Source: Hyphomicrobiales bacterium
GTDB lineage: Bacteria; Pseudomonadota; Alphaproteobacteria; Rhizobiales; JACESI01
Assembly: GCA_039973685.1 (NCBI GenBank)
Contig: JBDWKL010000033.1
Location: forward strand, 1-42,912
Reading direction: 5' to 3'
DNA length: 42,912 bases
Positions 29,906 through 37,485 of the stretch are shown piece by piece. The notes under the pieces are model-generated. The model searched no databases and was not told the origin of the DNA. It saw nothing but the letters and a program-made list of their open reading frames with translations. The position numbers were made by a program, and so were the translations under genes. Each line of letters starts with the position of its first letter. Position 1 is the first letter of the stretch.

Positions 29906-29953
29906 CGACAGCCTTTGAGAAGTGATTTCAAACACTATAACCAAACATCTGGG

Positions 29954-35599: not shown

Positions 35600-36067
35600 A
35601 TGTTTGAAAAAATCATGGAACTATTCAGCAGCGTTTCCGCAGAGCCGGAAGCAGAAGCTGCGCATTTTGATGCAAATGACCCGCGCCTCTCTGTTGCCGC
35701 CCTTTTGACCCATGTGATGGTCGTTGATGGTTTTATAGATCCTGCGGAACGAGAAACCCTGACCAAGATTTTAAAAGCGGAATACGATCTTGAAGCCAGC
35801 GAAATGGATGCGTTGATCAATGAGGCAATGGCTGCGGATAAAGCATCTGTCGATTTTTATAATTTCACCAGTCTCATCAAACGCCAATTAGACCGCGACG
35901 GTCTTTTGAACATTGTCGAGATGCTATGGCAAATTGTGCTGGCCGATGGTGTTTTGCACGAAATTGAGGATAGTGTGGTTTGGCGCATTGCAGAGCTGCT
36001 TGGTGTTGAAACACGCGAACGCGTTCGATTGAGACAAAAAGTCGAAGCAAAGCTGGCCGCACAATAG
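35600..36067 (+). CDS. TerB-like protein
   Basis: This 155-residue, acidic, all-helical protein matches the TerB (tellurite resistance B/DjlA N-terminal) domain. It shows two similar helical blocks: AALLTHVMVVDGFIDPAERETL (about 33-54) and MLWQIVLADGVLHEIEDSVVW (about 112-132). Each has the Asp/Glu-rich turn DGxxxxxE that suggests a metal site. TerB domains occur in stress-response and membrane-associated complexes, and many stand-alone members, like this one, have no known task. No other ter genes are present. It is followed 18 bases later by a glutamine amidotransferase gene, so the two may be co-transcribed. Confidence 0.85.
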   Translation: MFEKIMELFSSVSAEPEAEAAHFDANDPRLSVAALLTHVMVVDGFIDPAERETLTKILKAEYDLEASEMDALINEAMAADKASVDFYNFTSLIKRQLDRDGLLNIVEMLWQIVLADGVLHEIEDSVVWRIAELLGVETRERVRLRQKVEAKLAAQ

Positions 36068-36085: not shown

Positions 36086-36790
36086 ATGCCAGAAAAAATC
36101 CTCATCATTGTTCATCAAGAGCAGTCCACACCGGGTCGGGTTGGAAAGTTATTAGAAGAACGCGGGTATGAATTGGATATCAGGCGTCCTCGTTTTGATG
36201 ATCCACTGCCTGAAACGATGGATGAACATAAAGCCGCAATCATCTTTGGCGGACCTATGAGCGCCAACGATCCTGATGACTTCATCAAGAAAGAAATCGA
36301 CTGGTGTTCGGTGCCGTTAAAAGAACGCGCCCCGTTTTTCGGTATTTGCCTTGGCGCGCAAATGCTTTCAAAAAATCTCGGTGGCAAGGTTTACGAGCAT
36401 CCAGAAGGAAAAGCTGAGATCGGCTTTTATCCCGTCATCGATGAACGGCCAAAAAACCACAATCACGCCATGCCAACAGCACCCAGCCACGTCTTCCAAT
36501 GGCATGCAGAAGGTTTTGACCTACCACGCGGTGCTCAACAGCTCATTTCTGGCGAGATGTTTGAAAATCAGGCATTCCAACTGGATGATGCAATTTTCGG
36601 TGTTCAGTTTCATGCCGAACTCACGCTTGCCATGCACTATCGTTGGTTGATCGGGGGAGCAGAGCGCATGACAATGCCTGGCACCATGCCGCGAGAACAG
36701 CATTTGGAAGGGCGATTGCTCTATGACAAGCCGATAAAACGCTGGCTTAATCAGTTTCTAGATAATTGGCTTGCTGCAGATCCAAGATAA
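36086..36790 (+). CDS. Class I glutamine amidotransferase-like protein
   Basis: The 234-residue protein is a free-standing GMP synthase-like amidotransferase. The nucleophile elbow is FFGICLGAQMLSKNLGGKV, with Cys at about 91, and the His-Glu pair is in GVQFHAELT near 172-174, so the triad is intact. Related stand-alone proteins include gamma-glutamyl-polyamine hydrolases and PuuD-like enzymes, but the phylogeny here cannot be fixed by eye. There is no synthetase domain. It starts 18 bases after the TerB-like gene and is followed by a 398-base gap. Confidence 0.88.
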   Translation: MPEKILIIVHQEQSTPGRVGKLLEERGYELDIRRPRFDDPLPETMDEHKAAIIFGGPMSANDPDDFIKKEIDWCSVPLKERAPFFGICLGAQMLSKNLGGKVYEHPEGKAEIGFYPVIDERPKNHNHAMPTAPSHVFQWHAEGFDLPRGAQQLISGEMFENQAFQLDDAIFGVQFHAELTLAMHYRWLIGGAERMTMPGTMPREQHLEGRLLYDKPIKRWLNQFLDNWLAADPR

Positions 36791-36918
36791 TTTATTTTTT
36801 TGAAAAAAATTCACTCAAAAATTCGCAAATTCGACGCTCAGTCTCTCATTTTGCAAAACATTCGTTTCTTTTTGAGACACAAATGTAAACAGCAAGCAAA
36901 TACATTCTATATCTAGTA

Positions 36919-37090
36919 GTTTAAAGCGTAAGCCCTCAATATATGGCACTTACACTTGTTCAGAACTTGGAAACCACAATAGGTCATATTGTCCGAGCTG
37001 AATGTCAGGTATGTGCGTCTTTCAGCAGAGTATTTGAGTACGCGGGCAAATGGAAGCTGCAAGGGCTGCCATTTGCCCGTTTCTCGTTTG
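36919..37090 (+). ncRNA. Candidate structured small RNA upstream of yggT
   Basis: Bases 36946-37016 form one long, nearly continuous hairpin. GCAC (36946) pairs with GTGC (37013-37016). ACTTG (36954) pairs with CAGGT (37006-37010). TTCAG (36959) pairs with CTGAA (36998-37002). CTTGG (36966) pairs with CCGAG (36993-36997). ACAATA (36976) pairs with TATTGT (36987-36992) over a five-base loop. A 26-base linker leads to an 11-bp perfect hairpin at 37043-37080. The likely start, near 36919, is guessed from CTATAT at 36907. I do not recognise the RNA as 6S, SRP RNA, tmRNA or any known riboswitch. It could instead be a leader for yggT. Confidence 0.5.
37043..37090 (+). terminator. Hairpin terminator of the candidate sRNA
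   Basis: CGGGCAAATGG (37043-37053) pairs perfectly with CCATTTGCCCG (37069-37079). The 15-base loop itself can pair AGC with GCT. The following TTTCTCGTTT is a broken T-run, so it is a plausible but not ideal terminator. It lies about 100 bases before the yggT start, so it would end an upstream RNA rather than yggT. Confidence 0.5.
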
Positions 37091-37188
37091 GGGACACGTT
37101 CACCAACATTGAACGACAAACTTGCTTTTTGCGCGTGGGCTTATTATGTCGGCTAAGGACAAACCCTAAGCATAGAGTAGGCTCCCGC

Positions 37189-37485
37189 ATGATTGCAGTC
37201 TTCGCCACGATCGATTTCATCTTTGATATTATCTGGTTCTTGATTATCGCCAGCGCGATTTTCTCATGGCTCTATGCGTTCAACATTATCAATACAAGCA
37301 ATCAGTTCATCTCAACAATTGGTAGTTTCTTATACCAAGTCACAGAACCGATGCTGCGCCCGATCCGTCGCTTTGTTCCGGCCATTGGTGGCATGGACTT
37401 ATCACCGATCATTTTGTTGGTGATCTTGTTCTTCCTGCAAACCTTCATTGCAACGTCAATTAGACCAGCTGTTCTCGGCTACTAG
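37189..37485 (+). CDS. yggT: YggT-family membrane protein
   Basis: The 98-residue protein from the ATG at 37189 is a standard YggT protein. It has two membrane segments (about 7-30 and 72-93) joined by a loop with the conserved VTEPMLRPIRRFVPAIGGMDLSP. It sits in the inner membrane; family members are linked to osmotic tolerance, division or chloroplast nucleoid organisation, but the role is not settled. The longer frame to 36943 adds unrelated sequence. The DUF167 protein that often follows yggT is absent here. Confidence 0.9.
   Translation: MIAVFATIDFIFDIIWFLIIASAIFSWLYAFNIINTSNQFISTIGSFLYQVTEPMLRPIRRFVPAIGGMDLSPIILLVILFFLQTFIATSIRPAVLGY

Follow-up and report, generated by a model that had tools for sequence, protein, structure and literature searches.

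The window, by which is meant the whole 42,912-nucleotide stretch analysed here (contig JBDWKL010000033.1 of a Hyphomicrobiales bacterium), contains an intergenic gap at 36791-37188 with a glutamine amidotransferase (GATase) gene on its left and yggT on its right. This GATase-gap-yggT order is preserved in three genomes of the same genus, and alignment of the four genus genomes reveals a conserved block within the gap that is common to all of them. A first-pass annotation had proposed that the gap holds a new small RNA (sRNA) of about 170 nt, composed of a long hairpin of five nested blocks and a terminal hairpin, or else a leader that attenuates yggT. The features recognised in and around the gap are collected in Table 1.

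Table 1. Features of the GATase-yggT region, in window coordinates.
Feature	Position	Strand	Basis or remark
TerB-domain gene	35600..36067	+	Pfam TerB 2.9e-33; neighbour kept in synteny
Glutamine amidotransferase gene (GATase, PRK06490), directly upstream of the RNA	36086..36790	+	NCBIfam NF005072 346.2 bits (cut-off 339); synteny
TCTCTCATTTTGCAA, ATTTTGC/TTGCAAAA-type element upstream of the palindromes	36842..36856	+	14/15 positions invariant in four genus genomes
Palindrome 1 (TTCTATATCTAGTA), candidate activator (enhancer) site	36905..36918	.	Score 9.7, motif learned without the genus
Palindrome 2 (CTCAATATATGGCA), 30 bp from palindrome 1	36935..36948	.	Score 13.5, or 13.4 in the whole-window scan
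TTGGAAACCACAATAGG, position of the relatives' sigma-54 -24/-12 promoter	36967..36983	+	Alignments; GG kept, -12 GC is AG
Predicted small RNA, about 92 nt	36994..37085	+	Block conserved in four genus genomes and order-wide homologues
Hairpin 1, GCUGAA / UUCAGC stem	36997..37026	+	Covariation in 42-row alignment
Near-constant loop AGGUAUGUGCGU (family form AGGUNNUGCGU; AGGU..UGCGU)	37007..37018	+	42-row alignment
Hairpin 2, probable terminator, then TTTCTCGTTT	37043..37079	+	Perfect 11-bp stem
CTTGCT-N17-TTATGT, promoter-like site of yggT located after the RNA	37121..37149	+	Pattern match
yggT	37189..37485	+	Pfam YGGT 4.2e-21

Hairpins and extent of the predicted RNA

The 5' end of the predicted RNA was placed by counting 12 nt from the -12 position of the promoter discussed below, which puts it 3 nt before hairpin 1; folding of the 95 nt from 36991 to 37085 gives z = -3.18. 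The terminal hairpin (hairpin 2) was confirmed as first described: 37043-37053 pairs perfectly with 37069-37079, and the surrounding 46-nt stretch (37040-37085) folds at -27.2 kcal/mol with z = -4.85, a value that none of 200 dinucleotide shuffles equalled. In the four genus genomes all 44 cells of this stem are paired and five of its 11 pairs show double changes, both counts being obtained after hand registration of one shifted row; in the unshifted MAFFT alignment, hairpins 1 and 2 together keep 92.6% of 68 cells, with five double changes. The tail after hairpin 2 is a poor T-run in the window, as the first-pass annotation had also remarked, and is T-richer in the three genus relatives; a simple terminator scan of 36788-37200 returned no sites. 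GACCC occurs in the hairpin 2 region of 31 of 42 aligned rows, a set that includes none of the four rows from the genus, and by eye several of the rows lacking this stretch show a T-run instead.

Hairpin 1 is supported by covariation across the order. In an alignment (A6) of 42 hand-chosen rows, from which near-duplicates and loci without a convincing hairpin were omitted, 92.7% of its cells are paired and double changes occur in five of the six pairs. The double-change cells number 27, compared with a shuffle mean of 9.5 and with none of 500 shuffles reaching as high, and the covariation score is 0.314 versus at most 0.105 in slid controls. Similarly, the pairing of 36997-37002 with 37021-37026 is kept in 17 of 18 cells in the three genus relatives, with two double changes. 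When the window RNA is folded alone, the minimum free energy (MFE) fold prefers an alternative pairing and hairpin 1 is present only in the centroid. Kissing between the two loops would involve 3-4 bp only, as judged by eye.

The long hairpin at 36946-37016 fared less well. It does appear as the MFE fold (26 pairs, -22.9 kcal/mol), but with z = -2.07, a value that 7 of 200 shuffles attain, it exceeds chance only modestly. Of its 72 scorable cells in the three genus relatives, 50 still pair, with three double changes; moreover, the structure competes with the local hairpin at 36997-37026 and its 5' half aligns with promoter DNA. Compensatory changes among relatives are found in hairpins 1 and 2, whereas the five-block hairpin is poorly kept. 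Taken by itself the long hairpin would fit chance folding in an AT-rich gap; however, the covariation of the two shorter hairpins, together with the synteny and the palindromes described below, leaves that explanation with next to no probability.

Distribution and gene neighbourhood

A covariance model built from the four genus sequences only (R1), run over 397 genomes of the order, returned the four genus copies and ten weak order matches, several of which share GCUGA-UGUCAGGUNNUGCGUC-UCAGC and a second hairpin. A nine-sequence model (R2) matched 75 of the 397 genomes at E<=0.5, in 38 of 141 genera, and had no match at this threshold in the other 322. Seventy loci were read, 30 from the R2 search and 40 of 50 further matches (ten weak ones were left out), among which L126 and L142 are the same place. 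GATase is the neighbour at 30 of the 70 and patatin at 20, while one has TerB only and 19 have neither; many of the low-scoring matches without a GATase or patatin neighbour look like chance. Where GATase is the neighbour, the RNA follows it on the same strand at a distance of 129-284 nt in 28 of the 30 loci, the distance being 746 nt in L129 and 1613 nt in L147. Behind patatin it lies, again on the same strand, 114-333 nt downstream at all 20 loci, 18 of which also hold a pentapeptide-repeat homologue, and copies in this setting sit between the two genes; in f42 the RNA sits behind the patatin gene. Copies with one or other neighbour come from at least 13 families (f1, f13, f14, f16, f21, f30, f32, f37, f38, f39, f41, f42 and f44). 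Tandem copies of the RNA are present in three genomes, at L126 (1501, 1695), L137 (1301, 1501) and L138 (1501, 1701), suggesting sibling sRNAs.

The regular position on the same strand shortly after GATase, in 28 of 30 GATase-linked loci, is what might be seen if the RNA derived from the 3' UTR of the gene before it, or were only that gene's terminator region. However, relatives carry a promoter and palindrome architecture of the RNA's own (see below), the RNA is found behind an unrelated gene, patatin, at 20 loci, and it is duplicated in tandem in L126, L137 and L138, all of which makes such an origin unlikely. The alternative first raised, a 5' leader attenuating yggT, has in its favour that the RNA precedes yggT in the four genus genomes and also in L157, L160, L164 and L170, which belong to other families; the TerB-GATase-RNA-yggT order may be ancestral. 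However, yggT has a promoter-like site of its own downstream of hairpin 2, and at 69 of 77 named loci a site of this kind lies no more than 130 nt ahead of yggT. Moreover, an R1 match to the RNA was found at only one of 32 named yggT loci, that of the genus MAG (L005), and in the sequence fetched for the 70 matched loci a yggT homologue is present at eight and missing at 62, with 20 of the loci sitting downstream of patatin. A leader function is on these grounds very improbable, and the RNA is better read as a free sRNA.

As a less biased check, a GATase protein search was made in 61 genomes of the order, 47 of which have a homologue, and the best 30 loci were taken. Ten of these 30 best loci have a same-strand match to the R3 covariance model downstream of GATase at E<=1e-4, with L224 ambiguous (E = 0.0066); four of the ten (L215, L216, L225, L228) are from genomes not used for R3 and six from R3 genomes. 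In L238, the sequence GCCGGTCCGAGGGTTCTGCGTCGCCGG downstream of GATase places a motif resembling the loop within a stem; another GGGTTCTGCGT lies close by and there is no sigma-54 promoter match. This is a possible promoter-less relative.

Beyond the order, R3 matched 41 of 385 genomes of the class at E<=0.05, the window's genome included; class-wide spread was rejected, and the set was treated as chance: of 15 matched loci taken from the other 40 genomes, two had short flanks and the 13 read are without AGGTNNTGCGT. Among 36 named genomes, R2 matched the genus MAG (G397) twice, the second time at E = 0.27, and gave no credible copy in the 35 outside the genus, which are mostly Rhizobiaceae and their neighbours reached via yggT. 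One match there, in Brucella cytisi, covers 27 bases at E = 0.04 and was judged not credible. No homologue was found in the viral contigs scanned.

Promoter and paired palindromes

In the 42-row alignment hairpin 1 is preceded by a TGGCAAG-N4-TTGCG-like sequence. Of the 38 aligned rows that do not belong to the window's genus, 35 carry GG-N10-GC, the mark of a sigma-54 -24/-12 promoter, immediately before the RNA; L123, the second L126 copy and L130 do not. This count is partly selected because the R2 and R3 models contain the promoter stretch. The first members outside the genus came via R1, which was built on mostly degenerate genus promoters; L216 is an RNA copy without the GG-N10-GC promoter, and the copy in L239 was reached via the palindromes alone and not via a promoter-containing model. 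Inside the genus the motif is intact in one of four rows (G003) and degenerate in the window, G001 and G002. RpoN is encoded in all ten genomes tested, the window's included. The window's own promoter, with its degenerate -12 element, may use sigma-54.

Upstream of this position lie two palindromes, both 14 bp long. Their motif (consensus near CACCATATNTTGTG) was learned by EM from 38 non-genus upstream stretches and scores 256, versus 76-82 in five mononucleotide-shuffle controls, which used 12 seeds rather than 60 and 20 iterations rather than 30 and did not preserve dinucleotides. A spacing of 30-33 bp between the two top-scoring sites is seen in 37 of 42 rows, about seven of which have one low-scoring site; it is not seen in L123, the L126 copy at 1707, L130, the L137 copy at 1513 or L167. 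Among hand-picked positive loci, already known to have good sites, the pair was present in 28 of 31, as against the unpicked figure of 37 of 42. All four genus rows, none of which was used for motif learning, have the pair at exactly 30 bp. In the 42.9-kb window 36905/36935 (sum 23.2) is the only pair at 30-33 bp spacing with both sites scoring at least 8, a second, weaker pair near 29941 having a sum of 19.0 and one site below 8. Additionally, in L149, L158, L163, L170 and L173 both sites lie about one helical turn closer to the promoter. A shift by a helical turn would be expected of a DNA-bound activator, for which the palindromes are candidate binding sites.

With the threshold chosen, a scan of 797 kb of other loci gave six pairs. 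Five coincide with RNA genes (L005, L212, L213, L228, L240), so that the pair was recovered at only five of the 11 RNA loci marked there by R3 or R1. The sixth pair, in L239, lies behind a GATase gene and upstream of TTGGCACAGTCTTTGCT and two hairpins. This stretch (2325-2500) is a diverged copy, missed by the R3 model, with a canonical sigma-54 promoter, an altered hairpin 1 loop and a second hairpin that keeps the GACCCC stretch. Further upstream, 12 of the 26 GATase-linked copies inspected have an element related to that at 36842-36856 (of TTTTGCAA type) between -89 and -123 relative to the -24 box, compared with 0-4% in letter shuffles of each stretch; the motif TCTYTCATTTTGCAA has 38 matches with at most two mismatches in the window's own genome versus 7 for a reversed control.

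This architecture alters what can be kept of the original proposal. The CTATAT suggested as a -10-like box is indeed present at 36907-36912, but it sits in palindrome 1 and a sigma-70 -10 role for it is unsupported; a sigma-70 consensus scan of 36788-37200 found no promoters, a weak test that also misses the promoter-like site of yggT. Covariation and order-wide conservation support a free sRNA that ends in the hairpin at 37043-37079, but an extent of about 170 nt and a role for the long hairpin are unsupported because the stretch before about 36994 aligns with the sigma-54 promoter and palindrome DNA of the relatives.

The degenerate promoters of the genus allow a different reading, in which the RNA gene is real and the window's genus has left sigma-54 control, with another sigma factor reading from the conserved TTCAGAACTT.G.AA..ATA.T stretch. 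Conservation of this stretch is strong across the four genus genomes, three of which have lost the -12 GC, and similar TTRGAAAC promoters are seen in L130, L131 and L216. However, the constant 30-bp spacing of the palindrome pair in all four genus genomes would be difficult to account for if no activator were bound there, G003 retains an intact GG-N10-GC, and the window's genome (G000) encodes RpoN together with about six enhancer-binding-protein genes or fragments. A change of sigma factor in the genus is put forward only tentatively.

Candidate activators, known RNAs and significance

The enhancer-binding-protein candidates in G000 are NtrC, FlbD, NtrX, L251, L256 and one fragment. FlbD is unlikely to be the activator, as G018 carries the RNA behind GATase and has no FlbD match at 1e-170; G100, G130 and G224, which have RNA matches too, are absent among the FlbD matches listed. 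The NtrX site given in the available text of PMC9223101, CAAN2-5TTG, resembles the palindromes. However, NtrX of G000 (L263) carries LFGSEAADGSPRRTGAL at the position of GAFTGA in the genome's four other full-length enhancer-binding proteins, and because the GAFTGA loop is absent its activation of sigma-54, and hence its candidacy, is doubtful. The REC-AAA regulator L251 occurs in 23 of 24 genomes with an RNA match and also in six of eight without, a distribution that is compatible with a role as activator but not discriminating. No paired sites were found near enhancer-binding-protein family matches in 30 loci.

In an Rfam 15 covariance search no family reaches its gathering score in the window, in keeping with the first-pass annotation, which matched the RNA to no known family; the best match at the gap is ssnA (E = 0.077, 17.8 bits versus a threshold of 37.3). 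At 26 further loci, three of them doubtful homologues, there is no Rfam match on the RNA strand at E<=0.5, and the sole matches overlapping the RNA are sub-threshold, on the opposite strand, and at L091, a doubtful locus. Sub-threshold tmRNA matches were seen near the RNA locus in L089 (3074-3142) and L164 (1561-1636), which represent two families.

Other alphaproteobacterial sRNA families in Rfam include the alpha-r group, EcpR1 and BjrC; these are of the same general kind, yet none has an at-threshold match in the window. GlmY/GlmZ and NrsZ are under sigma-54 control, and these RNAs, together with Qrr and CrcZ/CrcY, are gammaproteobacterial. Qrr (PMC10162802) and CrcZ/CrcY (PMC6292655) are presented in the available text of these papers as sigma-54- and enhancer-driven sRNAs. 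As far as these accounts extend, the window family resembles Qrr, CrcZ/CrcY, GlmY/GlmZ and NrsZ in pairing a predicted free sRNA gene with a -24/-12-type promoter and candidate activator sites ahead of it, but differs from them, by comparison of descriptions, in its occurrence in Hyphomicrobiales and in its loop AGGUNNUGCGU and GACCC stretch. According to the available text of PMC12559287, the alpha-r8 RNAs (MmgR, SisA-D) have a single-stranded UUUCCUCCCU core and lie mostly beside an N-formylglutamate amidohydrolase gene. Like them, the window RNA is an alphaproteobacterial, if predicted, sRNA with a hairpin plus probable terminator; unlike them, it is without the UUUCCUCCCU core and is flanked by GATase and YGGT instead of that amidohydrolase gene. 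Neither TTTCCTCCCT nor even CCTCCC is present on the + strand of 36700-37200. Identity with MmgR/alpha-r8, which a bdhA/patatin neighbourhood had suggested, was ruled out on the alpha-r8 core and neighbour gene as these are given in that text (PMC12559287). No description of the RNA was recognised in the literature searched, which took in few subscription journals and included the available text of PMC12559287, PMC8401924, PMC9223101 and PMC12403871.

Taken together, the gap probably encodes a free, probably trans-acting sRNA, about 92 nt long and part of an undescribed family spread across the order and driven by an enhancer and sigma-54, a reading to which we assign a probability of about 0.72. 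This reading draws on the conservation, covariation and synteny of the RNA, on the sigma-54-type promoter and palindrome pair of the relatives, and on the window's own palindrome pair; transcription of the RNA, its exact ends and its action in trans are predicted from these sequence features. In the proposed mechanism, an activator would bind both palindromes, whose spacing of about 31 bp corresponds to three helical turns, and the bound enhancer-binding protein would switch on the sigma-54 promoter. The RNA would then begin almost at hairpin 1, displaying the near-constant loop, and end in the second hairpin, which has a GACCC(C) stretch in most aligned copies, and its loops may pair with target mRNAs or bind a protein. 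A broader and distinctly more speculative proposal is that an order-wide RNA, with loops nearly fixed while the stems drift, is wired to a dedicated two-site enhancer and forms the output arm of an uncharacterised enhancer-protein/sigma-54 circuit, in which the loops bind a single unchanging partner, either a protein or a core mRNA, and of which the window's genus would be a natural rewiring.

Work on sRNAs in Hyphomicrobiales has centred on Sinorhizobium, and in the named genomes scanned the RNA was not found in the Sinorhizobium group on which past sRNA work in the order has focused. The family would add to the known repertoire an sRNA with strong covariation and without a match in Rfam release 15. 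The promoter and palindrome grammar shared by its members makes the activator and its signal directly testable, and the window's genus, in which the sigma-54 core has changed and the palindromes are kept, offers a natural experiment in rewiring. Matching no catalogued RNA family, the RNA points to an unstudied control circuit.
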